Below are positions 134-59,850 of a stretch of 64,000 bases of DNA, one piece after another. This DNA comes from Alentia gelatinosa. Lineage: Eukaryota; Annelida; Polychaeta; Phyllodocida; Polynoidae. The stretch's first letter is position 1, and every line of letters begins with the position of its first letter. The stretch is taken from assembly GCA_950022655.1 (NCBI GenBank), contig OX465582.1:92456704-92520703 (forward strand), given 5' to 3'. A model generated the notes under the pieces. It did no database searches. It saw only the letters and a list, made by a program, of their open reading frames with translations, and had not been told where the DNA came from. Made by a program: the position numbers and the translations under genes.

Positions 134-295
134 GAACGCTTCCTGATCTCGGAGAAGGTGGTTGGTCCAGGCCTGAAGACACTGCGTTTCCTGGCCCAGC
201 AGAACACCTGCGTACAAGGTGTGCTGATGGATAAACTGGACGAATTACTGACTGTCAAATGCTGCGGGGAACAACTGGCATTGGCCCTGCTTGAG
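134..295 (+). CDS. Channel exon 1 of window: RIH helical region
   Basis: Residues 1-54 of the partial protein, phase 0 to 0, acceptor TCTAG and donor GAG|GTAAGA. Contains GLKTLRFLAQQNTCVQ and LMDKLDELL, resembling the IP3R segment with a helical FLQNFC...NQ motif. It is preceded by 133 bases of intron. The last ~30 exon bases are also the first unit of a 44-bp tandem array. Confidence 0.85.
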
Positions 296-3200
296 GTAAG
301 AGACGAATAGAGGGTCAACTGGCTTTGACACTGCTTGAGGTAAGAGATGAATAGAGTGTGAACTGGCTTTGATACTGCTTGAAGTAAGAGATGAATAGAG
401 TGTGAACTGGCTTTGACACTGCTTGAAATAAGAGACGAATACTGTCAACTGGCTTTGATACTGCTTAAGCAATTCTCTTTTGATATTCTCACAAATCTAG
501 TGCTGTTGATAGAATGATTGTTACACAACAACGTATCAATTACTTTTTGTTCTGGTTATCATGATCTAACTCGGTAAGGCTCGGAAAAATTACTGCCCGC
601 GGCTTACGCCTTGGGCAGTAATTTTTCCGAGCCTTACCTCGTAACTTTGACTTATGTTCACCGGAACCTAGTTTCCCTCTATTCCTGCTAACTGGCATGT
701 TTAGGTCTTTCGTTCTGCTTATCATTATTCATCGCTGCTAACTGGTTGTTTACATCTTTTGTTTTGCTTATCATGACCTATCGCTGTTTACATCTTTCAT
801 TATGCTCATCATGATACATTGCTGTTAACTCACAGGATTACATCTTTTATTCTGCTTATCATGATCCATCGCTGCTAGCTTACACATTTACGCCTTTCAT
901 TCTGCTTATCATGATCCATAGCTGCTAGCTTACATGTTTACGTCTTTCATTCTACTTATCATTTTTTTTATTTTTTTTTTTTTATTCAAAATAAAGGTAA
1001 TTACAGTCACCCTAAGTGGGCGCTTTTCACGTAATTCCGTAAAAGAAAGGACAATACAGGACAATACAGTACAATATCGCAATAAATCGGTGTATTAAGT
1101 TACATAATTATAACATCATCGTATGTTTATTTGTAAGCTGTGACCATGCAGGAAACCAGGACTTAGAACCAGTAATCTGGATTTTTCAAAAGAAAGTCTT
1201 TTACAAATATTTAAAAAAAGGAGTTGTCTTGGATCTTCTGTATGTTCACAGGAAGTTGGTTCCATATTTTGTTCCCTATATACAAAGGAGAACGTCGATA
1301 TCTTTCACTTCTGGGCATGTCAATGTTAAGTACGATCTTGTTCTGGTATCTTGTAGTTCTTGTTGGCATTTTACAGTGTGCCGGGTCATCTGACCACTGA
1401 CGCATCAGAACCATGAGTTGAGTAGTCCAACGATACCTAAGTTGCCGTAATCTGCACTGAGCGTAGAGGTGTTCGATGCTGATGTCTCTATGTTTTCTGA
1501 TTCCTATTGCTGCCCTCAGGCAATGATTGAATAGCGTTAGTAACTTTTTAGTTACTGACTGTGCACAACTGAGATAGAGATAACCAACATAATCCAATTT
1601 GGGCATTATCATTTGTTTCACTTTTTTTAGTCGACTAGCCTTTGGTAGAAGGTTTTTCATTAAACGTAGCTTGTAAAGCTTCTGCCTCACATCATAAATT
1701 GTATTATTCTAGTTTTGTGTCCAGAGCCACACCCAAATACTTGAAACTTATAACAAAATCTAATTTCTCGCCTTGTATCTGACAATACAAACCATTTGTT
1801 TCTTTAGGTTGCTTACCAATCCACATCTGTTTTGTTTTCTTCATATTTATTAACAGTTTGTTTGTCAGACACCATCTTGATATATTGTCTAGGTCCTTCT
1901 GCATGTTTTGGATCACTTCTGCAGGTGTTTTTGCCCTGGACACCAAGACCAGGTCATCAGCATACATTTTGGCGGTACAATACTCAATACAATCAAAAAT
2001 ATCGTTTATGAACAAAATGAAAAGTGTAGGACCCAATACAGATCCCTGGGGAACTCCACACTTGATTGGCATGGTATTTGATATAGCGTCACTTAGCTTC
2101 AGGGATTGCGATCTATTAGAGAGGTAACTTTTAATAATATTTATTGTATCATTGTGCAGGCCAAAAGTAGATAATTTCTTGAATAGAATCAAATGAGATA
2201 CGCTATCGAATGCTTTTTTAACATCAACAAAAGTACATAAATTATAAGTTCCTTCGTTTATTCCGGAATATAGTTCTGACAAGAGGTAAAATACTGCTTG
2301 GCTGGTCGAACGACCAGGCATAAAACCAAACTGATATATATTTATAAGATTAGCCCTGACTAGGTGATCAATTAGCTGTTTCTGAATTACCTTCTCCATT
2401 AGTTTTGATAGCATTGATACTACAGTTATTGGTCTCCAGTTGGAATATAGAGATAAGTCACCAGATTTTGGAATTGGGGTTATTACCCCATTCTTTTGTG
2501 ACTGCGGGAATCTAGATGTTGATAAGACCATATTTAATAAATTTGTGATTAACTCAATATTGCTTATCAAAATTTGCTTTAATAATCCTGATTTTAAGTG
2601 TGGTATACCAGTAGATTTATTCGTATCCATGTCCTTCAATATTAGATATAGGTCATTTGACCGTATATCTTCAAGTTTAAGAGTTTCAAGATGTGTTGAT
2701 TTGTCACCAATATCAATCAAATTATTATTATCAGTAACATATGTATTGTTCACCTCGTCATCATAAATATTAGCCACCTCATCAGGCTGTATCTGTCCTA
2801 GAATGGAGAGTATTTTACTACCAATGGTAGTGAAATACATATTCATATCATTTGCAATTTGTTTTCTATCTTCTGATGATTTACCAAGTAAATTAGGGAA
2901 TTCCTCAGCAGATTGACTAGGGTTCCAATGTCGATTTAGAATTCGCCAGAAACGTCTACTGTCGTTTTTATTTTCAGCTAGTAACTTTTCCAGGTTGCTT
3001 GATTTATGAGCTCGGATTTGGGCACTTATTAGTTTTTTTAAGCGTCTAATTTCTGTTATTTGCGTTTTATCATCGGAATGCGAAGCCATTATACTTGTTA
3101 GTAATTTTGCTCAGGTATCTATATTATTATTAATATAAGCGGGTAGTTCAATACCGTCTTTAACTCGTATTTGATACTTCCTTATTGGGCATAGATCATC

Positions 3201-6200
3201 AATCACTTTTATCAGGTGATTCTCAAAATCACCGATAATGTCATACGGTTCACCATTGTCCGGAATTATATAGTTACCTATTTTTGTATGCAGATCTTCC
3301 AAATTTACCTTTTTGAAATTCCTACCTGTAATAGTAATTCACTTTACTTTAGCGGATATGTGTTTTCTAACAGCATATACCGGTACGTGATCTGTGAAGT
3401 ATAGATTTACAGTTCCCGATTTGCTGATATATTTGCAATTTGTATAGAAGTGGTCTATGGTGCTTTTACCTTTATTAGTTATATAAGTGCTATTGGTTGA
3501 TAATAAAGTGAAGTCATTATTTGTTAAGAATGTGCGAAGAACTCTGTATTTTAAACTCATTTTAGACGTTACATCAACATTAAAATCACCTTGCACCCAA
3601 ATTTCATAGTTTTTAAAACATGGATCTTGAACTATTTCTTGCAGGAAGCTGTAGCATAATTTAATATTTTTAGAGGTGGTCGATATACCGATATTATCAA
3701 TAGTTTTTTATGATTAGGCTCACATACTGTACAGGTAAGCACCTCATAAGCAGGAGTGGAAACGCTATAATTTTCTATACGGGTTAGATACGGTTTAACT
3801 CGGGTATTCGCGTATAAAGCCACTCCTCCACCTATCTTGTCCCAGTCATATTTCCTGTCTAGTCTAGTTAGAAACATATTATTCAATGTTAACAAATTAG
3901 GGGCGTGTTTTTCTTTTAGCCATGATTCAGTAATTGTAATATAACTGCATTTATCGGAAATCATTTTTAATTGGTCCATTTTAAATAGAGACTGTGCACA
4001 TTGACATTCAAAAACAATTCTCCCTTTAATCTAGTAAATTCATCACAACTTATTAAAGACATGCATCATGATGCATCGCTGCTAGCTTCCATGTTTATGT
4101 CTTTCTTTCTGCTTATCATGATGCATCGCTGCTAGCTTCCATGTTTACATCTTTCTTTCTGCTTATCATAATCCATCGCTGCTAATTCTTATGTTTACAT
4201 CTTTCACTCTGCTTATCATGATACATTGCTGCTAACTCGCACATTTATGTCTTACATTTTGCTTATCATGATCCTATAACCACTAATTTTTTATTTTGCA
4301 GATATTCCGAAACCACACTGAGCACTGCCTTCGGCTCCAGGCGCAACATGTTCAGACGATTGTTAAACTTGCTGGCCGCTATCGTGCAAGAGCATCTTCA
4401 TTTCTGTCGGTTAGTCTGCAGCTGAATATCATGTTTTGCTCCTAGAAGGCAGTACTTTCACCTTTTTCCCAGCACACTTAACTTCTAAGAAAATGTCACG
4501 AATGTGTCAAATCAAATTTTAGTGAGACTCTTTTGAATTATCAAATCATCAAATACAGTTATGAATACATATAATTTCCATTAATACTATTAATGTTGAT
4601 GTCTAGAAGAAATGAACAGATACAATACAGAACTTAAGAACTTATTTTAACATAAGCATTCTCTTTAGCTTCTGAAAGCCATCATTAAGATGGAGGATTC
4701 AGGAACGTTGCTGAAGCGGAACCAGCAGCTAGTTACAAAGTACATCATGGAGAACTACAAGTCTGCTGCCTACGTTATGAGCCTAGGCGAAGAAGAGAGG
4801 TATGTTAACCCTTATTATGCTCCATTCTCATAATACATTGGCCAATCACTGCCCTTCTTTCACTTCACTGACCAATTACTGCCCTTCTTACACAACACCA
4901 ACCAATCACTGCCCTTCTAACAAACACTGACCGATCAATGCCCTTATTACACAACATCTACTACTAACTTCCCTTCTTACACAACACCAACCAATCACTG
5001 CCCTTCTCACAATACCTGACTACTAACTGCCCTCCCTACAAACACTGACCAACCACTGTCCTTCTTACAAACACCGACCACTCACAAAATTTTGTACACA
5101 ACATGGACCACTAACTGCCCATTTTACAAAAGCTGGCTTGAAATACTTTTAAGGTAGATATATAAGGTAATTAAGAACCTAAAGTAGGACATTGTTCTAA
5201 TGTTGTTAATGAATAATAATAAAGTGAAGAAAACACAAAAAACCAGACACATTTGATTTCATTTAAAATGATGTATTGCAACCAAGATGACAATGGTGGT
5301 ATGGTGTATGGTATCAACTGTGAACACGACGTTTCGTACTAATTTATATTATTATATACCTATGCACTAAGTGACCCACCATACTGTACGCTGCTGGGGG
5401 GTTCCTTCGTAACGTACATATTACGCGATAAGCCGTGTAGCATCGTACCTACATACAGATTGCGTGCTTTGAACCATACTATGGCGTGCTTTGCGCTTAC
5501 TACGGCGTGCTTTGAGCTTACTACGGAGTGCTTTGAACAAATAACGCATTCTGATTGGCCGAGAGGCCGACAACACGACTCTGGGCAGAAGAATTGCAAA
5601 TGGCGGACGCCCTTCACTTTGCGTGTTCTGATGCGTTTTACACGCGCAACGCAACAAATTATCACGTGTATTGACCAAATCTCGAGCCAACTAACGGTTA
5701 GAAATAACCTGATACCGTTTAAATAGCTGAAATATGCGTATTTGAACGATAACAACATTGACACTCGGCGAGCGGGCGTCAACAAAGGAGGCTGTATGTG
5801 TGTGACGTCATTATCGGGGGTTCCCTACGCTCTGGGAAATCCCGATGATAACTTCATCGCAGCCGCACCGTCAAGTCGGCAAGGCGAGTGATGTTATTGT
5901 TCAATATTGCATATTAACGCCATTCAAACGGTCTCAGGTTTAAGCTACACTTTAGTTGCTTCGATATTTGGTCAATACACGTCATAACTCGTTCCGTTGC
6001 GCGTGTAAGACGTACCGCAACACGCGAAATACTGACTTGGCAATGTTGGGAGAATTTAGTTTGACCTTTGAACTAGCGGTGGCGCCTCCTAGAGTTTCAT
6101 AAGTGTATTTGACTTCCGGGTTAATCGTGGGATGTACTTACCGCGCTGAGTGACAGGCAAAGTGTCAACAGAGTCGATTTACGGTGAGTTTAGGACGATT

Positions 6201-9200
6201 GTAACCAATCTAAGGTATATAATAATAAAAAAACATGTTGATGACGCCAGTACGGCCAAACTTATTCTCAGAGTCGACGATAAATCGTTCTGAACGAGGT
6301 CGGCATGTTTTTTAATATTATTATATACCTATGCACTAAGTGACCCACCATACTGTACGCTGCTGGGGGGTTCCTTCGTAACGTACATATTACGCGATAA
6401 GCCGTGTAGCATCGTACCTACATACAGATTGCGTGCTTTGAACCATACTACGGCGTGCTTTGCGCTTACTACGGCGTGCTTTGAGCTTACTACGGAGTGC
6501 TTTGAACAAATAACGCATTCTGATTGGCCGAGAGGCCGACAACACGACTCTGGGCGGAAGAATTGCAAATGGCGGACGCCCTTCACTTTGCGTGTTCTGA
6601 TGCGTTTTACACGCGCAACGCAACAAATTATCACGTGTATTGACCAAATCTCGAGGCAACTAACGGTTAGAAATAACCTGATACCATTTAAATAGCTGAA
6701 ATATGCGTATTTGAACGATAACAACATTGACACTCGCCGAGCGGGCGTCAACAAAGGAGGCTGTATGTGTGTGACGTCATTATCGGGGGTTCCCTACGCT
6801 CTGGGATCAGGTGATGAATGAATCAGTTGTTGAATACCCTATGATTCATGGGTAAAAGGGGAAAAGACATATATAAAGTACACACAGTTAGTGGATACAG
6901 CACTGCTTCTGCTGTGAAGTATGGTGTAGCTGGTCATTAATTTTTCTTTTTGGACAATTTTATTGAGGTAATATAGTGGGTCTTGACATGTTTCTTTTTC
7001 TGCTTCAGACTTGAGATTCTCATCGGTAAACAGCAGCCTGAGAGTCGGGTGTATCTCATCAGACTGATTGAGCTGCTGGCCACCTGCGCCGAGGTAAGAG
7101 CACCTCTAAACAGCGAGTGTACTGTGTAAGGGAAGATGGCCCACTGCAGCCACCTTTCTCCTTCATCCCCAGCAGTGGTAGATCTACTGCTGTATCAAAG
7201 GTATTTTTTCTCCATAGACTTAACATTGGGCACTCTAACGCCCATTAGATATTTAGGAAAAATATCCAATCGGGGATTATGTCACAAATGATAGCCCATT
7301 AGTCAAGGTTAAGGGTGAGATAAATTAAGAAACCCATTCAAGTTTAGTGTCAGATCTCGAGCTATCTCGTTTAAAACACTACGTAATTCACGCGGCTTCG
7401 CCTTGTGAATTACTATGTGATTCAAACTCGATGGGATATGAGCTCAGACCCTAAACTCTCATAGGTTTCCTCTATATATTATTAAAGACCAGTCCTTCCC
7501 ACACCATGTCTCTCTGGCTTGGTGTACAACCACCTTTATCCTTCATCCCCAGCAGGGGTAGACTTTAGAGGAAACCTATGGAAGTTTACGGTCAGAGTTT
7601 GTATTCCATTGAGTTTAAATTGCGTAGGATTCACAAGGCGAAGCCGCGTGAATTACGTAGCGATTCAGACAAGATTGGATTGAGCTCTGAACCTAAACTT
7701 GGATAGGTTTTTGAATTTATCTCACCCTTCACTAATGGGCTAAATTTGTGACGTTATTCCTCATTGGGTATTTTTCCTAAATATCTCATGGGGGTTGGAT
7801 ACGAGTTCCCGATATTAAGTCTATGGAGAGAGAATACAAGGGGTGAGATAATTACTACTATATTAAAGGCCAGTCCTTCACCTATCATGTATTATCCCCA
7901 CTGAATATATATCTGCGGAATCAGTAAAACAGAACCCATTATGTAAAACCTGTCAGATACCATATCTATAGTATGTGGATTCAGATCCATGGTATATTGC
8001 CTTAGAAACTATGCTCTGTAAACCACTTGAGGTTGATGTCATAGTTCACTTGCTGACGCTTGTGTAATGCTATAAGACAACCTCTCGCTCTTTACGGCCG
8101 CCTGTCCATGGTAGCATTTGTTAAATATTGTCTATATCTATGTGTTGTGGTGTGCATCCACCTTTCTCCTTCATCCCAAGCAGTGATAGATTTGCTGCTA
8201 TATCAGAGACCAAACTTTCCCAAACATGTAAATGTGGTGCTAGATCCCCTCAGTAAAAAAGGGTGAAATCTCTATCCATCTCATAGATACTATCACGACC
8301 CCTGTGGAGCACAAGTAGTGATAAAAGGCTGCACATTGAGAAAGTCTGACCGAATGTAAAATAACCCTAAACCTAATTCTAACTCTCACCATATCCCAAG
8401 CCCTAATTCTCTCCCTAACCCTATCCCTATCCCTATCCCTAATCCTATCCCTTACTCTATCCCTATCTGTAACCATAATCCTAACATTAACACTACCCTG
8501 CAGCAGTAGGTGAGGAAATTTTCATGAAACAGATGCTCTCTTATACACACCAACTGGCAGCTCCAGCCCATCCGGGTCCAACTCCACTTGCTCATTATCC
8601 CTTATCCCTGTATAAAGGACAAGAGGCCGGAGTTGGGAAAATAAATCTATTGAATTTTATAAAAAAAAATCTAAGGATCTTAGTTATCCTTATGAATATT
8701 GATTATTGAAGAGAGGAAAATGATATTAATGATTGATATACATGTAATGATAATAGACTCTTAGAATGATGAGTCAAGTATATTGAATATATAATCTAAC
8801 AAAATATAAGAGAAAGGGCCTACGAAGGTAGGTAAAGTTGGAGAGGTGTTGGTGGATGGGTGAAAAATGAAGTGTGTGTGTGGTGTGGAAGCAGAAGCAC
8901 CCCTCTGAAAAGATCTGACACTCTCTAAGTGGTATTCGGTATTAAAGTCCAAATAAAGCCACTAGGGTGCCAAGTACACAGTTTTCCAGCTAGGTGGCAT
9001 CATTGAGATTAAAGGAATCTTTGGGTTGGATTGATGTACGTGTTTAGCACGGGAGGCAGGCCACTTGATTCTCAAGGCTCTAAGCCTAGTTTGTTACGAA
9101 TTCTTCTCCCATAGAGCGTAGTGAGAACCTTGTACAGAATACCGCTTAGAGATCTTATGAGAGGGGTGCCAGAAGCAAGGGTGAGGAGGAAAGATATAAG

Positions 9201-12200
9201 GTGGAAGAAAACCTGAGAAGCATGGTGCTGGGTTAAGACACCAGGGGGGAGGCACACATGTGATGCACAATGTAGAGGTGAGGAGGAGCAATTACCACCC
9301 CTGACCAAAGACAATGGTTCAAGTTGCCACCTATGCCACCTCCAAAAAATCTGCCATCCATGGACAAATGATATTCTTGACCACCTTATAATCTCTACAG
9401 TAGTCAAAATTTGTAGTGGGATTTTGGCGGTCCTATACAATGACTTAGGCTCGTAAATCTGGAAACTTGCTAATATGCCTTTTTATATCCACCAGGGGGA
9501 GAACCGGTACGTTGAGTCACTCTGTCAGACACTGCTGACAGCGCCAGAGCTAATCAACATACTCAACAACCGTCATGTCCCCATGTTGTCCAAGGTCGGC
9601 TTCGCACGCTACTTAATCTGGTCCTACATGTTGACAGCACGGAACATTATCGAGAGTGGGGTGGATGAGATGCACCATGACCCGTGAGTGTCTTATTCCT
9701 TCTTTTGATAATATACATTTTTTTGGCAAGATAAAATAGTGATAACCTTATTAGATCATTTCAGAGAAAAAAAATTCTTCAAATATTATGGTGTGTCACG
9801 CTTGGGTAATTACTTGAAACTTGTACACGATCTTCTTTATTCCATTTACAGTTCTTGAAATAGCGTTGCATCTCTGCAGTGGGCAGCGCTCTTCTGTAGT
9901 CTCTAGCCTTTTTCTGTGTGTCCCTTCTTTGTATTGGGCAGCATTACTCTCAAGTAGACAGTCTTTCTCTGCAGCGGATGGCACTAATTATCATCATATA
10001 CCTATGGCTGTATCAAGTGCGTATACTGCCCGCTCCTACCGATGGCGTATTTATACCCGTACAGCACAGTGTGCCGTACGGGGTATGTGATCACGTGACT
10101 AGATAAAATATCGCCATTTTTATAAGTATTAGGTATATAATAATACAAAAACGGGCTGACCATCTTCGTACATCAAGATACTTGGTAAAATTATTGATCA
10201 AATACATCCCTCTGCCTCCGGCATCGGGATGTATGTAATCAATAATTTCACCGCATATTTTTGACGTACGAAGATAGTAAGTCAGTTTCCGTATATCAGT
10301 AGTGAGCAGCAATTCCCCATATTAAAGCACATCCCTACAATGGGCAGTACTACTCTGTATTGGGTAGAACCTCTCTGGAGTGGGAAGCTTTTCTGTGTAG
10401 AGGGCAGCATTTCTCTGTAGAGGCCAGCATTTTTCTGTAGTCTGAAGTCCTTTTCTTCCTTTTTTTTTTATTAGTATTTTTTTCATATTGAAGGACCTCC
10501 TAAAATTGGCAGTTATACTATGTGGTGGGCAATACCTCTCTGTAGTTGGTAGCACTTCTTTGCAGTGGGTGGGAGTTCACCGCAGTGGGCAGCCCTTTTT
10601 TATAGCACATGGCACTTCTATATAGAAGGCTGCACTTTGCTACATTAGATGGCAGCTTTTCTGCAGTGGGTAGCACTTCTCTGCAGTGGGTGGCACTTCT
10701 TTCTAGTGGGTAGCAACTTTCTGTAGTAGGTGGTATTTCCTGTAGTGGTTAGGCCTACTCCTCTTTAGCCTATAAGACACTGACATATGTTCCAGATTCA
10801 TCCTGACCATCGGCTCGGTGAGAGTCGGGAATGAATTTTTGATTATACCTATAAGACACCGACATGATGACTATCCCCGATCACACTTCCCTCTTTTATA
10901 ACCTCATAAACTACCCAGGATAAGATCAAAGGAAGCGGCCGGGTGCCGGGCCCGGCTGGGCCCCGGGCCGAGTGATAAGTATATATATGCAATAATGCAA
11001 AGTTTAGTAGCTTCCAGTCTATTTAAAATATCAGAAAACGGTTTTCAGATGTATAATCGGCTCTGTCTCACCTACAAATCGATATTAGGTACTTCTAAAT
11101 CGGACTGGCGGATGAATTGTTACAGACCCGACTGATCTGTCGGGCAAAGGTAGAATCGGGCACAGTGGTCGGGTCGGTGTCTTATAGGCTTTAGGCTAGT
11201 CCTTCCCTCTATTGGATGGTCCTCCTTACTGGATGGTCCTAAAGGTAGTTCTTACATCTTATTTGCTTTTCAGGCAATGTAAGTAGAATCTACAGCCCAA
11301 AAATCCGTCTAGTTCAAAATATTCTGAGAATCTAACAGTTGACCCATGTAGAATTTGCTACTGAATAGTAGGTGTGATGCACAAATAATCAATGGGTTCT
11401 GTTGCAGGTTTTTAATCTTTCGCTATTTTTCAACTTTTGATTTCAGTGAAATGTGGAAACACTTCCGGATCCTCCTTACAGCCATGTCCCGTGTCAACAA
11501 AATGATGCATAAAGCGAAATCTGGTCTGTCCATCAGCGAGCATGAGAGGTGAGTTGTCCAGAGTCACCACTAAAGTGAAATAAGACTTGGCCATCAACAA
11601 GGATCTTTGGGAAGTACTATTTTGATCAAAGTTAGTGCTAAAATGAAATCAGACCTTGCCATCAACAAGACTATGGTGAGTAATACTTAGATCAAAGGTA
11701 CAGCTAAAGGGAAATTTGACTTGGCCATCAAGAATCATGACTGATGAGTAATACTGAGATCAGAGTTACAGGTTAAGTGAAATCAGATTCAGCCATCAAT
11801 ATGGGTTATTGGTGAAACGTCTCTAGGTTAAAATTACTGCTAAAGTGAAATCAGACCTTGCCATCAAGAAGGGTGATTGGTGAGTAATACTTAGATCAAA
11901 GTTACAGGTTAAGTGAGATCAGACCTTGCCATCAACATATCTGTGATGGTGAATCATACTTAGGTTACAGTTACCGCTGAAACGAAATCAGACCTTGCCA
12001 TCAGGGTGATTGGCAAGTAGTAATTAGATAAAAGTTACAGCTAAGGGGAAATCATACTTGGCCATCAATATATCTGTGATGGTGAATCATACTTAGGTTA
12101 CAGTTACCGGTGAAAAGAAATCAGACCTTGCCATCAGGGTGATTGGCAAGTAGTACTTAGATAAAAGTTACAGCTAAAGGGAAATCATACTTGGCCATCA

Positions 12201-15200
12201 ATATATCTGTGATGGTGAATCATACTTAGGTTACAGTTACCGCTAAAATGAAATCAGACTTGGCCATCAACAAGGGTGATTGATGAGTAGTACTTCAGTT
12301 AATTACAGCTTAAGTGAAATCAGACTTGACCATCAATGTGGTGTTTGGTGAATCATACCTGGGTTAAAGTTGCCGCTAAAATCAAATCAGACCTTGCCAT
12401 CAACAAGACTGATTAGTGAGTAATACTTAGATTAAAGTTACTGCTAAAATGAAGTCAGACCTTGCCATCAACCAGGGTGATTGGTGAGTCATACTTAAGT
12501 CAAAGTTACAGCTAAAGTGACCTCAGACTTGGTGACCAATGCAACAAGAGTGAGTAATACTTAGGTCAAAGCTAATGTTAAAGTGAAATCAAACTTTTCC
12601 ATCACCAAGAATGATTGGTGAGTAATACTTTCTTTTTATATAAGAGAGCTGAACTCTGTTTGTTTATCCTGAAAAAAACAGGTACATAGTCAAAGTAGTT
12701 ACTTGTCTATTCTGTACGAACATATGAACAATCCCTCGATGCACAATTGTATATCCAATAGACCACACTTGCTCACTCCAAAGATGAACAATGGTGAGTA
12801 ATACTTAGATCAAAGTTACCGCTAACGTGAAATCAAACTTGTGACTAGTGAGGATGACAGATGAGCTGTTTTGAGTGTAATCAGCCATTAGCAATGATAA
12901 AGATTTATGAAATCCTGACTTTTCATTAGGCCCAAAATACTGAACTCTATTATCCGAGCTGCAATGGCATGTTAAAAAACTTTGTGTTTCAGGATTGCCT
13001 TGCCAAGGAAGTCCATCTTCGTAGATCTGCTTCATGCGAGCAAAGACTTTGCGAAGACTCCGCTCCTCATCGCAGCTGCCAACACAGACATTGACTGTGA
13101 AGGCATCATCAAGTACATGTTACACGTGGGCTTCCACCTTCTGCAGGTGAGATTACTATCTCTGCTTGGTACTTATATAGAAAGAATTGATCATGTTGTA
13201 CATGCTACAAAACGAGATGGGAAATTGTTGTTTTTTTACGGAACGAGGCCCCAGAGTGAGTTCCATAAATAACATCAATTTGCATTTGGTTTTGTAGTAT
13301 GAATAAGTAGGTTGGGTCATTATGTATTTATTATATATACCTAAATTTGATAAAATCTTGCCATATATTGCCATAGAAGAGATGTCGATGTGAAACCCCC
13401 ACACTGCTGATGTATCAAAGTATTCAGTATAAAAGTTTATCCTACCCCTAATAAAAAACTCCATAGGCTTAACATTGGGTCACTGTATTAGATCTGGAGT
13501 TCAGAAAAATGAAAAATATTGCTCTAGTGGGATACACTTGACAAATGATGTCATTTGTTAATGTAGAAGTAATTTAGACAGGCAGGGTAGGATAAATTCT
13601 AAACCAAACTCGAGTTAGTCTTGTTATTGTTCATCGCACTCCAGCAAGATTGTGTATTACTGCTCTCGGCTTTGCCTCGCGCAGTAATACGAGATCTTGA
13701 TGTCGTGCGATAGACAACAACACGACTAACTCTTGTTTGGTTTCTCCATATTATCCTACCCCTAATAAAAAACTCCATAGCGTTAACATTGGGTCACTGT
13801 ATTCGGTCTGGAGTTCAGAAAAATGAAAAATATCGGTAAAAATAACAGGTAGTGAATTACTGCGCGAGGCGTTAGATGACCGTAGTGAGAAGCAGACCTG
13901 ACTGGAGTATGATAAACACTAACACTACTGACTTGAGTTCAGTTTAGTATTTATCCTACCCCATCTCCAATAATTCATTTGTTACCCGCATGCAATTAAT
14001 AATATTTTACTGCACGCTCACCAGAATACAGTGAGCCAATATGGTGTTTTTTATTAGGGGTAGGATAAATCTTCTGAAGCTACTCTGAACATAAATGATT
14101 CACATAAAATCCCTTCCTGACTTCCCACAGACATTCTTCAGCAAGTTCTACAAGGAGGACAAAGAAAACTACCCAGAGGAACCAGAAATACTGAGGAAAA
14201 TAGCATCCACTACGCTTGTAAGTCGACCTCCCTTTAACAATCAACCCAGGTCTGTTTTCAATATTTGAGTTAGAAAACAAATACGAGTCTACTAGGTTTG
14301 ATTGAAGTGGTTTTTGTTATGTCTGTTGTAAGTTACAGGATGATAGTCTTAGTTATCCAACGTTTCGGCGTTTGTTGCCTGCATCAGTGCTTTAAAGACA
14401 AATGTGGGTAGGTGTCGCAGCGCCCCCGTTATTGCTCAATTTAACACTGGTGCTGCCATCTAGTTTCATGAAAATGTAACAGTTTCCCATAGACACAAAT
14501 ATGGAAACACTTATGGCCTTCCCATAGAAAATAGCATGGTGACATTGTATTTTTTAGCATTTCTCATTTGTACATGTTCCATGTACAGTATCGTAATCCA
14601 AAATTATTTGAAGCGTAAGCACATCAGTGTCATTTAGCAACAAAGTCAGAATATTGCATTTTCCGATAGACACCAATAGTTAAGCACTTACCTTTTCAGA
14701 TGGCCTTCCCTCTGATGTTAGCATGGTGACATGCCACATATTTTTGCATTTTCTATTTGCTGATATATAAAACTTATATCACCCTGGGTTATTTGCAAAA
14801 ATCAAAAGAACTTAGAAAAGTAAGTTTGGTGTGATTTTCTTAACTTAATTTTTTTCAGGTAGTGCTGTGTGTGTAAAGCTAGTTTGGTGTCATTTGTTAA
14901 TGTAAAAAATGATTTCTTTCAGATATTCACAGAGTTTTGTGGAGAATTCACCACGAAGAATGAAGAGTTGGCAGTTATAATAGAGTGCATTGAAACCTTC
15001 GGCCACTGTCTTAAAGTCTCACAGCCGGTAAGAGATGTCTTCCCAGTACACTGAGATGAGATCATGAAATTTAAATGCAGGTTAGATGAACATGCAAATA
15101 TAAACCTCTTAGTCCTGTTTTTTCAGTTGTGACCATTTGTGATAATGACAAGTTAGTGACTGTTTCAAGACCATTGGGTTCCAGAGACAAATGGTCATAA

Positions 15201-18200
15201 TACTAGCGACCATTTTGAGGGGTAAAGGTCTTGGTCACTGTTTTGTGTTCCAGAGTCATGACAATTTTGTGACCATTTAACTCAAATGGTCTCAAAAACA
15301 GTGATAGGGTCAGTAATGTCATACATGTATGATATTCATACTAAAACTTATCAAAATTAAAGATATTTTCAATGTAGGATTTTATATACCTTTTTCCCAA
15401 ATTACATAATTTTCCAATGACAATTTCATTTATGATCATGTTTCACCAGAGCCAGTGACAACTGTTGACACTGCTCTGCTTGACTGCCTTGTTTACATCC
15501 TACTGCAGTACTCGACCCTAAGTTGGTGTGATAATCTCTTACTACTGTTTGGAATATTTCATTATATACACTTCCACTGTATCAAATGAAACAATACTTA
15601 CTGTGATGTATTATCCATGTCTGTTATATCTAATTCACAAATTTCATAATTTTCTGTTAAGCAATATACATGTGAGACCTTTTCTTTTTCTGAATGGGCC
15701 TCTGACAAACAGTATTCATAACAGCCTAACAGTGACCAGGACTGAGGAACGGTTTGCAGTCATGATCACTCTTTTGGTCTCCCAAATTGGTCACTTTTTT
15801 TCTATCAAAACTAATAAAGACGTTGCTGTCTGAAATATAGAACTCTGAATTTTGATAAGAAGATGCAGAAACAAACCTCTCAAGAAAGATCACTTAACTG
15901 TCCGTGCGGTCAATTTCTTACACAAAGATGGTCAAAATTGTCCTCACTGCTGCCAGAAAGAGTTTTTTTCATTTAACACAGTTAACACAGTAGCCATACC
16001 ATATACGCTTAATAGCGTTCTACCATATGATAGTCAGAATACATGAAGTGAAAAAGGTACAGGACAAGCCTAAACACACGCACAAGTACAAAGTACAGTA
16101 CACGGAAACAGAGTTTGCCATATATGGTTATATGCAAAGTGGTTTGAGACTTGAAAAGACAGCGTAAACAAACTTTGAAAATATATCTCTTTGGCAAACC
16201 CACTGTATAGCAACTGCATTACATTTTATGCAGAGCAGTACAGACTTGAATATCCAAGTCCATGAGCTCAGCATTTGTATCCCATTTAATGAGTTACAAA
16301 TCCTGTAGGCTGTGTGGTGTGGCATAAAGCGCAAGATCCACTAAGGCGATTTTCCATGCGAATTTGGGTTCGCAGACGTTCACAGATGTTCGTAGACATT
16401 CGCATGGACATGCAAATGCCTTGCGACAATATTCAATATATTGAATATCATTGCATGGGATTCGCACAGTCGCATGGATCGCAGACGCTTTCGCTTGGTC
16501 GCCTTAGTGGATATGGCGCTATAGATGCAGCGCAGATTTGGTGGAATGTTTTTCCATTGATATACTTCAATAAACAGTTTGTTTACACTCCCTAGAATGA
16601 AACCCGGTTTTCGTGTATACACATCACAATGTATACACATATGCCATTTTCTGGTAACCTAAAAAAACATCAATACTAGACACTGGCACGTGTATCAAAT
16701 CTCTTCAGAGATGACCAAGCAGCTTGGAGAAATGAAATTTGGTTACTATAGACCCATGGATACGACCACGGAATTATGATAACACCATTGAAATGAGTGC
16801 AATTATTGGTAAAATAATTCCTATTTTCAGTTTATGTTGTTCACTCGGCGGCTTACGCCATTTTCAAATTATCATAAAAGTATGGATAATAGGGTTCGGA
16901 GAATGAATAACTTATTGCTTAATGTTTTGTTAAATAGATAAGAAGGTTATGCTCATATTTTAGGAATTCGAACGGATCTGCAATGAAACAAACCTCAAAA
17001 CGACGCTGAAAAAGGCCAAAGTGAAAATAGATGATGTAAGAAGAATTCACATATTTTTTTCTGAAACATTTTGAAGTGTAATCTAGGTGAAGGGTTTCTG
17101 TTTCAAATACCATGTTTACTGCATTCACAGGCTCAAGCTTCCTGGTCCGTTTATTACTTACAGCTTCATTAGTATCGGCCCAAATGTTTCTACTGCTTCG
17201 TGTAATAATCTACTGATTCACCTTTGATATTTGTACATCATAATACTTGGACCCTATCTTTTAGGTAAAAAAGGTTAAAACAGGTTGAAACCTTTTTATT
17301 GGGGGAAAATTGTAAATCATAATACTCTTTTGTTACCAGCAGTAAGACTTTTCATTTTTATCAGGTAAAGATTGTAATCATAATAGTTTGACTGTGTGGT
17401 TAGATAATAAAAGGATACAACCAGTAAGACAGTTTATTGGGTAAAGATTGTACATCATAATACTTCCAGGACTCTTTTGTTAGGTAACAAAAGGATACAA
17501 GCTAAAAGGCTTTTTCCTGGGTAAAGATTGTACATAATAATATTTGGACTCTTTATTATGTAACAAGAGGTTACAACCAGTAGAACGTTTCATTTTTATT
17601 GGGTAGAGATTGTACATCATAATACTTGGACTCAGTTATCAGCTAACAAAAGGACACAACCAGTGAGACTTTTTATTGGTTAAAGATTGTACATTATAAT
17701 CTTTGGACTCTTTTGTTAGGTAGCAAAAGGTTACAACCACGATGAACAATTACTCAACAAGAAGATGCACAACTTCGGAAAGAGATTGGCCATCTACCTG
17801 GAGAACCAGAACACGCTGAAGGCACAGCTTGGCATTTTTTCTTCAAGGCGTGAGTTGTGCTTACTGCAGGATATAAATTAAATGTATAATTAAAATCGCC
17901 ACGTAATTCAATGACTATTTCCATGGTCTATATAATGTGAAAACTATAGCAAATTTCGTTATGATATTGTTTTAAATCAACATCCACTGCACGAAAACCA
18001 CCATTTTATTCATCTATACGCCATCGCAGAAGTGCATGTATTGGCTGAATATTGACTTGTTTTCATATGCATACGCCCAGGCCTTATATACGACGGACGC
18101 GTCTTGGCTGTATTTCACACCAGGCGTATATGCAAGGAAATACCCTCTGCCCCCGCTGGCTCCCTTTGTGTTGGTATAAGTACAGGTGTCATCAGTAGGA

Positions 18201-42200: not shown

Positions 42201-45200
42201 TTCCATATTACAAGGACCTCCTGAGAGAAGAGGTCATCGAGGAGGTCAAGTGGAACATCGACCGAACCTCCACCTCTAACAAGCTGAGAGACCTTCTACG
42301 ATGGTCCAAGGACATCATCAAGGATATTGAGTACCAGAACAGATTCCTGAAAAATAAATTTCTAAAGCAATTGGCAGCTAAATGGTAATTATCCTTCATA
42401 TACAAGATCAAAACTTTATTGACCAACATGGGACAAAAACTATTTGACATATTGGATTTGGATTTATGCAACAAACCACATACATTGCATAGGGAGCCAG
42501 AGTGAACCCGCTGAAACCACAGATACCCACCTACAAATCACCATTTCCGGTGGCCAGTAAGAACGAGGCTTAGTGCCAGAGCTATGGGGGTTTGAGGCTA
42601 GACTTATGTTTTTGGTCTCGTTTGTTACTTTTGAGGTGGAGTTTATAACTATCGTCTGTAAATAACTATGTTTCAAAACTACGATGACAGTTGTTAAGTT
42701 TATCAAAAAATTTGGATCTAAAAGATTGGTGAATGAGACATATAATCTTGAACCTACATAGTCAAAGTACTGAGCGCCTATACCCGGAAATAGTATTTTG
42801 TGACCGGCTATCTGTGGTTGCAATGGGTTCACTTTGGCTCCCTATAGTAATCTCGGTGAGACTGTAGCCAAGTAAAGACAGTAGCAGTACGGACTGAGTT
42901 ACTTAAATCCAAATCTATTCTCTCTGAGATTTGTGTAATACGTATCTTGTCTCGTCTCCACAAAATTTAGATCCAAGGAAAAACATTATATGCCATGCCC
43001 CATCAAATACAGTCACTCAATATCCTTTTTAAACTCATTTCAAATAAAAAATACTCAAAAAAAACCCCATATAATACGAATAATACATGTATAAATGCTT
43101 TGGATATCGAAGCTAGAAACCCAATCCTCATGTCTGATTATAAAAAATCCCTCTGTGATATTTCTTCCATTCCAGGCAAATCTGGAACCTTGCAGCTATT
43201 TTCCTGTCTTTGGCAATCAATATCCTGATGTTGGCAACCTGGGACGCTCGAGGTCATGTGTCTGGATTACCATTAAACATCACAGCCCTACCACCAGAAC
43301 TACTCAGGTAAGTTTTAAACCTCACTGTCCTCCCACCAGAACTACTAAGGTGAGTTTTAAACCTCACTGTCCTACCACCAGAGCTACTCAGGTAAGTTTT
43401 AAACCTTAAAGTCCTACCACCAGACCTACTCAGCTACCAGCAGAACTGTTTTAAATCTCATTATCCTGCCACAAGAATTTCAAATCTAATTGTCCTATCA
43501 CCAGAACTACTCAGGTAAATTTAAAACCTAACTATGCTAATACCTGAACTTGCTAGGTAAGTTCACTTCCCTGCAACTGGAGCTCCAAAAGTGAATCCTT
43601 ATTCTCACTGTCCTGCCACCAGAAATACCTGTGAGTTTTAAAACTTACTTTCCTGCAACTGGGACTACTCATTTGAGTTTTAGTCCTTTCTGTCCTACCA
43701 CCATAACTACTCAGTTGAGATCGTTACCTCACTACCCTGCCACCATAACTATTTAGGTTCTAAACCTCATTGTCCTACTACAATGTGTACTCAGGTAAGT
43801 TCTTCCCATGCTCTAAGTTGGTTCAGCATCAATCTAAAAAGATCACCACACAATATAAGCCAACACCAAAGCTAAATCCACAGGTAGCTTTAAGCCATCA
43901 GCATCAGAAGATCGCTTGGTAAATGGCACTATACAAATTGCTTGTATTCCAGTATGGAATATTCATTTTTTTGCGATATTCACTTGAAGATAGGACATGA
44001 AGTGCAAAAAGTAATTCACCATCATTTATTGCACTTGTTACATTTCCAGTGTCAAATTTACTGTGCACAACATTCACTACGTTGGCATAATTTACTAGAA
44101 GTACAGGAATTCCCATTCAAAGCTCAGTTCTTTTTCAGCCATCAACCCCTTATCAAGTTCGAGCCGTACTACGCCATCCATCACACTCTGGCCTCCTTAC
44201 ACAACTTCAGCTCGCTCATGCTCTTTATCGCCTACTTCTTAAGGAATCATCCACGGGCTCCCAATATATTCTTCTGGAAAAAGTGGAAGTTCTTTAAGTA
44301 AGTATACAGAAAGTTCTCTGTGCTTAGAAATCTCTGACCTCACCCGATCACATCTCCAGACTAGTTCCATGATACACAACCTTCCCTCAAACACACCTAC
44401 CTTTGAATAACTACCTTGAGTAGACATTCCACGGGGCAAGGTTATAGTTGTTGCAATTGAACACAAGAGGACACCACCAGTATAAAGAAAACTAGCGGAG
44501 AACGGATGGACTGGGATCAGCGTGGTTGTGGTGTATGGAATCACGTTCCCGACGATGCCAGACTGCCCGATGCCCCAGATTAGTATGTTGGGTCCTCTTC
44601 CATTACACCAATGATATCTGTAGTATCCTACTATGTATAGTTGTATTTGTAGGTGGCTACTCCAGTCACCCTCCTCTTCTATTTACATAACCCTACCAGT
44701 GCTGCCACTCTGTGAGCAGCTGGGCTACTACTCACTGTGATTCAAATGTAGGGCAACAGGATGTCATGTGACTTCTATCTTGTATCCTCACACACAGGAA
44801 TAAACATCTCCAGCATAATCTACAAACATCTGCCAGTCTTATCATTATGGTGCAATATCACACTCTATAATATCAGAATAATAAATCAGACACTGTAAGA
44901 ATCATATTTCGTCCAGATGGAACAGGCCCTAAATGTAGCCTACTAAGCCATGCAGGCCTATCAGCACAGTGATATTCCCACAGCTGTCACCTCGTTCATA
45001 TCACACTGCATCAAACTCGTGGAGGACGACGACTTTGACCAAAACTTGTTGGTTTCTTCTTTAATCTGCACATGTATATCTGGTAGCATTTCTAGGCTTT
45101 CCAATATTTCCATAGAGAATACCTCTCAGATAGAAAATGTACACTTACAATTCTGGTCACAGGACTGGAGAAGACCCTTTCAGAGATCGAACCAGACAAG

Positions 45201-54200: not shown

Positions 54201-57200
54201 CTGAGATTGGGGGTGATTGTAAACTCAGGCCTACAGAGCGCAAAGAATATGTCCCTTGTGTATAAAATACTGCGTGAGAAGATTGGCAGAAAGTTTGTCT
54301 TTGTCTTAGTTCTGCAACGCTGAATAATCAATTTAATGGAAATCGACTGTATTATGATTAAATGACTGATGATAGAAAGGGTGGCAACTAGTGTAGTCCA
54401 ATGGAGATTCCAAACTTTTCACTCTGATGCTCTTTGATTATACTTACAAAACCAAAAAAGAAGAAAAGAGCTTGAAAACAGACTAAAATGAATATATGAA
54501 ATCATTAACAACTGTTAAACCATGTTTTGAACATTTTTATTACATGCTTCAATGGAAGAACGGCTCTAAAGCCGAATTCGATAATTGTGTACGTGCAAAT
54601 ATTCCCTAATAAAAATTTTAAAAAAAAATCATGTATCGAGAATTCTAATAAACACTGCTCTTTATATAAAAAACAAAATTGATGTACAATGGTTCACTAT
54701 ATACATATAGTCCTTTGAGGTTACTGCTATTTGTATCTGGAACCAGTTGATATTGTTGATATTGTGTATTCATGAAGAACCTAAGTGTCCATAAAAAATA
54801 AGCAGAAATAACTCAATTATCATATAACTCTTTACGGTGGTTTGAACTGGCATGTTGTAACCTGCCTTACTGTAACATCTTGTAGAAGCACTATGATGGA
54901 TATTTGGTTGCTATTGAACCCTCTAGATGCCAATAAGCGCTGCTTTTTAAAAGAGAGTAAATTTGTGTATTGGTCCCCCTTATATAAAGAGAGAGGACAT
55001 CTTTAAGGCATTTGCTGATAGATCTTACTAGGTCTATGCATGAATAATGAAATAGCATGAGAGTGAGACTCTTGTGTAGATAAAGACCTCTTCCACTTTT
55101 TACAATGCCTTTACTTTGATGTACAGTCGTATTCTGTACAAGGTTCTCACTGCGCTCTATGCGAGAACAAGCTAGGCTTAGAGCCTTGAGAATACACTGG
55201 CACAGATTATTCCTGCTAGGTGGCATCATTGAGATTATATGAATCTTTGGGTGGCATTGATGTGCGTCTTTAGCACGGGAGGCAGGTCAGTGGATTCTCA
55301 CGGCTCTAAGCCTAGTTCGTTAAGATTCTTCTCCCATAGAGCATAATGAGAGTACAGAAGACGACTTAGAGAGTGTGAGATCTTATGAGAGTCAGACTGA
55401 AGCGATCAAGCTGCTCCCATCTATCTGGAGGCACACATATCAGAGGTTGTTTAAAATGGTATGTAATCACTGTCTCTGTGACATTCATTTACTCCTGTAG
55501 CCATGTTGAGTAGTTTCACAGTCCATGGCAAAAACTATTTATGTTTTTTTTATGTTGCAGGGCTTCAACCACCATGTCGAAAAGGAGCACAACATGTGGT
55601 CCTACGTCTTCTACCTGCTCTACCTGAAGGAGACGACAGAGAATGACTGCGGCGCTATAGACATCCATGTCCTCAAAATGGTAAGATGACACCCTCAATA
55701 CGTTTACCAATTCACGGCGGGTGATGCCATATGGCAGCAACCGTGCTGGGGCGGGTGATGCCATGTGGCAACAACCGTGCTGGGGCGGGTGATGCCATGT
55801 GGCAACAACCGTGCTGGGGCGGGTGATGCCAAAAGGGATAATTTTCTTAAATTTGCTAAATTTCGTTTTTGTGGAATAAAATCGGAAATATTGGATATAT
55901 AATCATGAGATTTTCACAATATATAGATGAAAAACCCAGCTAATGATTCCAGGTGAAATGAAAAATTAGAAATGGACAATAAATTTAATGATTGCATATT
56001 TTATCACATCCCTAAACTATAGAACTATCACAATAGGCCTGAGACCTCCTGCCCTCTGGCGGTATACATTAGCACTAGTACCCGCCCTTTACCACATACT
56101 ATTGTCACAGGTAACTGCCCTTAAAGGGTTAACATTTCCTGCTGGGGTCATCGAAATGTTAATACAACACTCCTATATATACTCAATATGTTAAATCAGC
56201 ACTTCTAGAACATCAATATGCTGAGACAACAGTCCTATATTATCAACATGTTAGGACAACACTCCTACATCCTCGGCATGCTCAAACAATATTCCTACAT
56301 CCTGAACATGGTAACAAAACACTCATAAATCCTCAACATTATGAAACAACACTCCTATATCATCATCCTTGCATTCCATCCTCAGAACTTTAGGGACGAG
56401 GTTCCTAGTCCTCCCAGACAGCTATGGCTCCTTATATCTCCTAATATCACACATTATACACGCTCATTTATTTCATTCTGACAATACTAGCTTTATAACT
56501 AGGATATATACTCTTATATCTAAGATCTATTCTTATATCTTGTGTTGTTTAATCTTTTCTCCGTTCCGTTGGAGTTGTTGCTCCGTAGTTCGGAAAAGAA
56601 TTAATTTGCAAGTGGTGGGAGAGAGTGGTGAGAAAAGATAAGCCTCGTTTACCCACACTATTCTTATATCTTACATCTAGTTTTCTATTTTGTCAAATGA
56701 ATCTCGTTTAAATGGCTTCCCCGCGTTATTGGTCATCATGAAACAACACTCCTACACCAACATGCTCAACATGTTCACACAACACTCTTATATCCCAAAC
56801 ATAAAACAACAACCCTTCATCTTCAACATGTTTTCACTATAATGCTTCATTCCCAACATCTTAAAATACCACTACTACATCCTCAACATGTTAACACAAT
56901 AATCCTACATCTTCCACATGTTAAAACAATACTCCTAAATCATCCACATGTTAAAACAACAATCCTACATCCTCAATATGGTGAGGCAGAACCTTTCCAT
57001 GTATATAACCCACTGCGCAAAAAACAACAATTTATTCACATATGTGCCATCGCTTATGTCCATGTATCGGCTGTATATTGACACGTTACTTCTTCTTTAC
57101 GTCAGCGTAATGGCTGTATTTACCACAGAGCGTATATGAAGAGAAATATTGTGTGTGAGACATGTATACTCCAGTCGTATACATTTTACACGTCTATAGA

Positions 57201-58982: not shown

Positions 58983-59850
58983 AACCACCAGTTCTACATA
59001 CTCAGATCCAAGTGGGTCTCCTTCCCGGGGCATCAAAACTACCAGTTCTACTTACAAAGATCCAAGCGAGTCTCCTTCCAGAGGCATTGATATCGCTAGT
59101 TCTAGTTACTCAGATCCAAGCGGGTCTCCTTCCAGAGGCATTAAAACCACCAGTTCTACGTACACAGATCAAAGCGGGTCTCCTTACAGGGGCATTAAAA
59201 CCACCAGTTCTACGTACTCAGATCCAAGCGGGTCTCCTTCCCGAGGCATTGATATCGCTAGTTCTACTTACACAGATCAAAGCGGGTCTCCTTTCTGAGG
59301 CATTGATATCGCTAGTTCTAGTTACACAGGTCCAAGTGGGTCTACTTCCCGAGGCATTAAAACCACCAGTTCTACTTACACAGATCAAAGCGGGTCTCCT
59401 TCCCGAGGCATTAAAACCACCAGTTCTACATACACAGATCTAGGCGGGTCTCCTTACAAAGGCATTAAAACCACCAGTTCTACTTACAAAGATCCAAGCA
59501 GGTCTCCTTCCCAAGGCATTGATATCGCTAGTTCTAATTACTCAGGTCCAATTGGGTCTCCTTACTAAGGCACTAATATGTCTAGTTCTACTTTACCAGA
59601 TCCAAGCGCGTCTCCTTACCAAGGCATTAGAACCACCAGTTCTACCTCCACAGATCCAAGTGGGTCACCTTCCAGAGGGATTAAAATCACCAGTTCTACT
59701 TACACATAGCCATGTTGGTCTCCTTCTCGAGGCATTAATATTGGTAGTTCTAGTTACACAGGTTCAATGGGGTCTCCTTTCTGAGGCATTAGAACCACCA
59801 ATTCTACTGAAACAGATCCAAGCGAGTCTTCTTTCTGTGTTCTATATGTT
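58945..59850 (+). repeat. 54-bp minisatellite seeded by the last coding bases
   Basis: GATCCAAG occurs at 58951 (coding), 59005 and 59059, exactly 54 apart; about 16 units. Each reads GATCCAAGCGGGTCTCCTTC, CCGAGGCATTAAAACCACCA, GTTCTACTTACACA. The first unit encodes RSKRVSFPRH and the stop. Long open frames here are repeat artefacts. Confidence 0.95.

Follow-up and report, generated by a model that had tools for sequence, protein, structure and literature searches.

Why should the minisatellites of a single gene so often contain that gene's own coding boundaries? The question is raised by a 64-kb window, the whole stretch of DNA analyzed here, in which a single large gene occupies the + strand and tandem repeats abut many of its exons. 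Ten of the gene's own boundaries (seven splice donors, two splice acceptors, and the stop codon) lie inside tandem copies. Below, the composition of these arrays, their placement relative to chance, and the likely direction of copying are considered in turn, together with the explanations that each line of evidence favors or disfavors.

The Host Gene

The gene belongs to the IP3-receptor family and encodes an animal calcium channel. A simple gene finder yields 30 exons in one consistent reading phase with no phase break. Three exons (4302–4409, 40503–40602, and 44139–44297) were added by tblastn with homologs and one (14923–15027) from open frames, so that the working model comprises 34 exons, with 33 donors, 34 acceptors, and the stop as its 68 boundaries. 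The original prediction had counted 36 exons, and its exon numbering is retained here. The four additions were placed outside the gene finder; from coordinates alone three are in phase, and 40503–40602 requires donor 38534 to be shifted by 4 bp. Two exon ends were entered with slightly different coordinates: 4409 as 4408 (in the tests of exons 2 and 34 and in the placement test) and 44139 as 44142 (in the tests of exons 2 and 34). The model exons at 11447, 12993, and 28704 have no tblastn match to homologs.

When the stitched 30-exon protein is searched against IP3 receptors, it matches ITPR2 (E 2.3e-46), with homology to the pore and C-terminal region. Invertebrate IP3R-like channels match more closely, the best being the IP3R of Lingula anatina (53% over the searched region, E 6e-95). 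In a quick tree, where the window sequence sits on a long branch in a set without a lancelet sequence, the channel falls within the spiralian clade of one paralog (SH-aLRT 100), near Lingula and one further sequence (87), and a hemichordate grouping is rejected (p-AU 0.00123). No hit is named as a lancelet protein among 63 hits or among the 120 listed of 809, many of which are nameless. By this protein tree, the host gene looks spiralian rather than lancelet, and a lancelet source of the window is unlikely. Scans for tRNAs and against Rfam gave no matches.

Arrays That Span Coding Boundaries

Arrays were listed by TRF, and their copies were aligned in phase with the junction; all features described lie on the + strand unless stated otherwise. 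Copy alignments bear out the prediction that the exon end plus the 5' splice site is repeated after exons 1, 6, 13, 18, 19, and 27. The first exon of the window (134–295, donor 295/296; gene model and homolog alignment) runs into an array at 272–486 made of five copies of a 44-bp unit with an exon part of 24 bp. At exon 6 (11447–11548; gene model, aligned to ITPR2), 14 copies of a 67- to 68-bp unit could be aligned (11514–12649), with an exon part of 35 bp and 66% identity. Exon 13 (19640–19786; gene model and tblastn) is followed by 14 copies of a 74-bp unit (19752–20835, exon part 30 bp), and exon 18 (33832–33984; ITPR2 and homolog alignments) by 13 aligned copies of an 85-bp unit (33951–35202, exon part 33 bp). 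The shortest unit, 36 bp, is found in 21 aligned copies after exon 19 (35465–35614; gene model, homolog alignment, and tblastn), where the array spans 35596–36406 and includes 19 bp of exon. Exon 27 (43176–43307; gene model and tblastn) gives way to six copies of a 42-bp unit (43273–43572), in which exonic homology extends up to 35 bp.

The seventh donor, that of exon 15 (24499–24596; gene model and tblastn), is a case that the original prediction missed. Here 59 bp around the donor have been duplicated once, directly adjacent (24565–24623 and 24624–24683), and this duplication is absent from the TRF list. A scan of 60 boundaries in the 30-exon model plus eight contributed by the added exons revealed exon 15 as the sole further case. 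Two weaker candidates were left uncounted: the exon 17 donor at 32921, whose score of 24 equals the null maximum, and the donor at 45377, which scores 29 against a null maximum of 98.

The two acceptors precede exons 11 (17720–17849) and 12 (19021–19147), both supported by the gene model and tblastn. It had been proposed that the arrays before them repeat the intron end, the AG, and the exon start. The intron end and AG are indeed repeated at both, whereas repetition of the exon start is demonstrable only at exon 11, where six copies of a 77-bp unit (17209–17741) carry an exon part of 20 bp. The exon 12 array (18620–19026) has seven copies of a 39-bp unit and is interrupted at 18774–18913; the interrupting stretch holds an inverted repeat at 18826–18890 that appears foldback-like by eye. 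The tenth boundary is the predicted stop TAG (58980–58982) of the last exon (58776–58982; gene model). As claimed from the outset, the 3' array (58949–59833) repeats the last codons and the stop, together with 3' flank, in 16 copies of a 54-bp unit. Units differ between arrays, which fits the proposal that each array was born independently.

Exons 2 and 34 had also been named as likely cases, and neither survives direct comparison. The array at 4065–4274 stops ∼28 bp before exon 2, and the strict and loose scores are reached by 78% and 18% of shuffles, respectively. At exon 34, the array begins 36 bp beyond the donor, and 57% and 84% of shuffles reach the two scores. A comparison of exon 2 with the array at 685–962 was likewise rejected (15% and 36% of shuffles). 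The arrays at 685–962 and 4065–4274 form one 50-bp family, split by a stretch with a reverse-transcriptase-like open reading frame (1707–3110, − strand), for which a search returned no close relative (28–42% identity among the 120 listed of 1,582 hits).

Ten arrays away from boundaries were compared on both strands with 30 exons and their 30-bp flanks. None scores above the shuffle maximum, and so they are not recognizable as displaced exon-edge copies. Two arrays (4842–5085 and 55716–55831) begin 43 and 36 bp past a donor with the junction outside; the second is almost perfect, with 97% matches by TRF, and so is probably young. A degenerate intronic array at 8362–8483 has telomere-like units of the TAACCC type. 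A segment comprising the last 55 bp of exon 41223–41338, its donor, and ∼150 bp of the intron is found again 2.3 kb upstream (38990–39198 vs. 41284–41492, 82% over 209 bp). The 5' part of the exon is absent from the upstream segment, and exon 40503–40602 lies in between. Judged by this resemblance, 38990–39198 is another exon-end copy, but a distant one. Two dispersed repeat pairs, 28144–28657/50100–50602 (88% identity) and 45512–45805/53057–53351 (96%), are perhaps transposable elements.

Exon-Like Parts of the Units Resemble Their Own Exons

A repeat unit that straddles a junction might resemble the exon only by chance. Exon bases alone were therefore compared with the consensus of the other copies, excluding the authentic copy; at exon 15 this "consensus" is a single other copy. 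Matches number 20/24 for exon 1, 23/35 for exon 6, 18/20 for exon 11, 25/30 for exon 13, 25/32 for exon 15, 26/33 for exon 18, 14/19 for exon 19, 22/23 for exon 27, and 28/29 for the stop. These identities, 66%–97% at nine boundaries, are matched or beaten by none of 20,000 shuffles and by no other coding window (3,200–3,744 windows). Thus, at nine of the ten boundaries the exon-like parts are closer to their own exons than expected by chance, as the original prediction required.

The exception is exon 12, whose exon part (4/6) is equaled by 139 of 4,186 coding windows and 981 of 20,000 shuffles because just six exon bases are involved. A significant exon part is accordingly present in eight of the nine splice cases, and the exon 12 array shows the intron end and AG only. 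Two cases are marginal when the 30-exon model is scanned at its 60 boundaries. Exon 12 scores 39, barely above a null maximum of 38, and exon 19 scores 31 (z 4.2), not exceeding a null maximum of 33. Exon 19 is retained because its copy alignment and exon-only identity support it.

Arrays Contain Boundaries More Often Than Random Placement Allows

For the placement test, 56 TRF rows were merged by hand into 20 families with units of at least 20 bp and ∼2.5 copies or more. Short-unit rows (1048, 18350, 23962, 39361, and 53587) and rows of about two copies (23543, 26426, 51016, 56493, and 58450) were dropped, and the test covers the catalog that is left after their removal. Row 43449 was folded into the exon 27 array, and exon 15 lies outside the catalog because it is absent from the TRF list. 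Nine of the 20 families contain a coding boundary, compared with 0.65–0.97 expected, and nine was reached in none of 1,000,000 random placements of units of the same lengths. If exon 12 is counted as a miss, the resulting eight of 20 is reached zero or three times per 1,000,000 placements, depending on the overlap rule. Nonrandom placement at boundaries, as originally claimed, is thereby upheld within this gene. The observed and expected numbers imply a rate of birth, or of survival, of such duplications that is ∼9 to 14 times higher at coding boundaries than in introns.

Mere protection of the DNA next to exons is an insufficient explanation, since 12 families lie at a boundary or no more than 50 bp from one, and nine of them contain it, against three that lie only beside it (P = 0.013 with a 50-bp flank and 0.00034 with a 100-bp flank). 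The excess does depend on counting births instead of coverage. At a self-alignment threshold of 34, 10 of the 68 boundaries (15%) fall in local direct repeats, which cover ∼25% of the region, and there is no excess by this measure. Families were counted because arrays can grow only on the noncoding side. The same scan finds 53 local direct-repeat clusters, 11 of which touch a boundary of the 30-exon model, one of these (exon 34) having failed the direct test.

We consider it probable that these arrays are minisatellites of the "mirage" type described in lancelets. At each site, a short stretch straddling the boundary between coding and noncoding sequence would have been duplicated in tandem. 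The exon-proximal copy would retain its function under purifying selection, and the extra copies, landing in the intron or the 3' flank, would be neutral and multiply by ordinary minisatellite turnover. Both the neutral growth and the undisturbed splicing are things that we infer. As a guess, duplications may tend to begin within exons or close to them; wholly exonic ones would be removed by selection, and those at the edges would remain visible.

A junction-linked duplication process, as originally suggested, is possible. One version couples copying to splicing or RNA, through template switching in repair with pre-mRNA or cDNA, or through breaks or pausing at splice sites. Splice junctions make up nine of the ten cases, and donors (7/33) are affected more often than acceptors (2/34), a lean that is not significant (Fisher p = 0.083). 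However, the 16-copy array at the stop codon sits at a boundary that is invisible to splicing. The boundary concerned is therefore not always a splice site, which argues against a purely splicing-driven process. This version seems rather unlikely.

The Direction of Copying

Copies may have been made from exon to intron; in the reverse history, arrays would arise first in the intron and then overwrite the exon end, so that the exon came to resemble the array. These possibilities were compared by aligning the 30-exon protein with 13 homologs. The CDGQ near the end of exon 18 is present in 13 of 13 homologs, Trichoplax included, and the sequence of the following exon (DYLRSQPD) is nearly unchanged among them. 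Recurring residues are likewise found at the ends of exons 1, 15, and 19. Since the ends of all four exons recur in spiralians and hemichordates, these exons are probably older than their arrays. At exon 27, ALPP is common to a few homologs only. The argument for exon-to-intron copying that was first made from exons 18 and 27 therefore holds for exon 18 and in part for exon 27. On this comparative evidence, the direction is supported at exons 1, 15, 18, and 19 and partly so at exon 27, with no such support at exons 6, 12, and 13 or the stop.

For the residues at the ends of exon 6 and the last exon, the homologs offer no clear equivalent, as overwriting would allow. Array-bearing ends are also less conserved on average than others (0.64 vs. 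1.69; 8 vs. 22 ends; p = 0.14), and exon 6, exon 13, and the stop are the candidates for such a history. Differences between exon and array consensus by codon position (13/72, 10/75, and 19/72) show only a slight third-position lean. Set against the recurring ends of exons 1, 15, 18, and 19, overwriting is very unlikely as the general explanation.

Behavior of the Repeated Splice Sites

In each of the seven donor arrays, reading past the authentic donor meets an in-frame stop after 1 to 60 bases, before the next donor copy is reached. The exon-proximal donor must therefore be the productive one if a full protein is to be made. Authentic donors are at least as strong as any copy at exons 1, 6, 15, 18, 19, and 27, although they are equaled by one copy at exon 1, two at exon 18, three at exon 19, and one at exon 27. 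Exon 13 differs in that its authentic donor is weak and is outscored by one copy (0.8 for the copy vs. −2.4).

Copies of such strength are what might be expected if repeated splice sites were kept by selection because they served, for example, as spare donors, decoys, or exon-definition elements. Nevertheless, conservation of the GT and AG columns appears mixed among the copies, many donor copies are dead or weak, distal donors meet a stop codon in seven of seven arrays, and the stop-codon array has no known splice site. A selected function is thus scarcely probable. Taken together, the stops before distal donors, the mixed conservation of GT and AG, and the donor strengths make the array copies look like neutral by-products.

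A further proposal is that the arrays are the remains of intron-creating or intron-lengthening duplications of AG|GT. In its favor, many units hold AG|GT, and intron gain through tandem duplication has been both proposed and demonstrated experimentally (PMC3443670) and has been suggested for mirages (PMC3087553). The proposal predicts that both intron ends resemble the unit, and it is the least probable reading because the other end does not: the opposite splice site is unlike the unit in nine of nine splice arrays (scores 11–16, shuffle maxima 19–24), and 135–4182 bp of other sequence lie between array and opposite site. This comparison used the 30-exon model, and the added exons shorten the introns after exons 1 and 27 and before exon 11. 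AG|GT duplication as the origin of these introns, an idea raised in the original prediction, is therefore not supported.

Relation to Known Boundary Repeats

Mirage minisatellites have been described in the lancelet genes Adh3, TnC, PGBD5, and the globins BflGb6 and BflGb9 (PMC3087553, PMC3902484). According to these accounts, they leave normal mRNA splicing undisturbed and vary in length between haplotypes or somatically (PMC3087553, PMC3902484); the authors of the globin study regard the mechanism as unclear and suggest that the repeats may contribute to intron gain (PMC3087553). As far as these descriptions go, the lancelet repeats and the present arrays share minisatellite-size units spanning exon–intron boundaries at 5' or 3' splice sites, with AG or GT in many but not all copies and the authentic splice site adjoining the exon. 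These traits are found here at seven donors and two acceptors; of the two acceptors, that of exon 11 has a significant exon part. Reported unit lengths also overlap, being 36–85 bp here and 10–72 bp in Adh3, 60 and 108 bp in PGBD5, and 150–160 bp in the globins. Unlike the lancelet cases as described, a single gene here has ten affected boundaries, including a stop codon, and some copies are just 61%–63% like their own array consensus. Furthermore, the host gene is spiralian-looking by its protein tree, and the arrays are known from the DNA of one haplotype.

Other systems are less similar. Genes in human segmental duplications are reported to carry internal tandem repeats at exon–intron boundaries with units of ∼30 bp (PMC2812944). 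These are likewise minisatellite-like, but they are described as recent copy-number differences between near-identical paralogs, often present in transcripts or forming new introns, whereas the arrays here are old, diverged, and on the intron side of exons. Tandem genomic duplication as a route of intron gain (PMC3443670) also involves short AG|GT-holding segments; in that model, as outlined, exonic sequence is duplicated to give a new intron with two matching ends, whereas only one intron end is repeated here. Minisatellites reported in intron 1 of earthworm metallothionein are presented, in the available parts of that report, with no mention of splice junction content (PMC12783039). In the accessible portions of the open-license literature, no such arrays were found outside lancelets, the human boundary repeats apart (PMC2812944). 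Overall, the arrays belong to a known kind, the lancelet mirages, and are not unprecedented. What appears to be new is that one gene has so many of them, that their excess has been measured, that a stop codon is involved, and that the host looks spiralian.

A broader interpretation can be put forward tentatively, as a possibility that we would not yet favor. Some animal lineages, apparently a spiralian and the lancelets, may have a mutational process that tandemly duplicates coding boundaries many times more often than other parts of genes and so repeatedly seeds minisatellites from exon edges, stops included. In the present gene, which has about ten cases, a little-known lancelet oddity seemingly extends to a different part of the animal tree. 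The gene also offers natural cases in which splicing picks one donor among several near-identical neighbors. The origin of boundary-spanning repeats, and perhaps of some introns, could be tested by counting arrays against exon edges across the genome.
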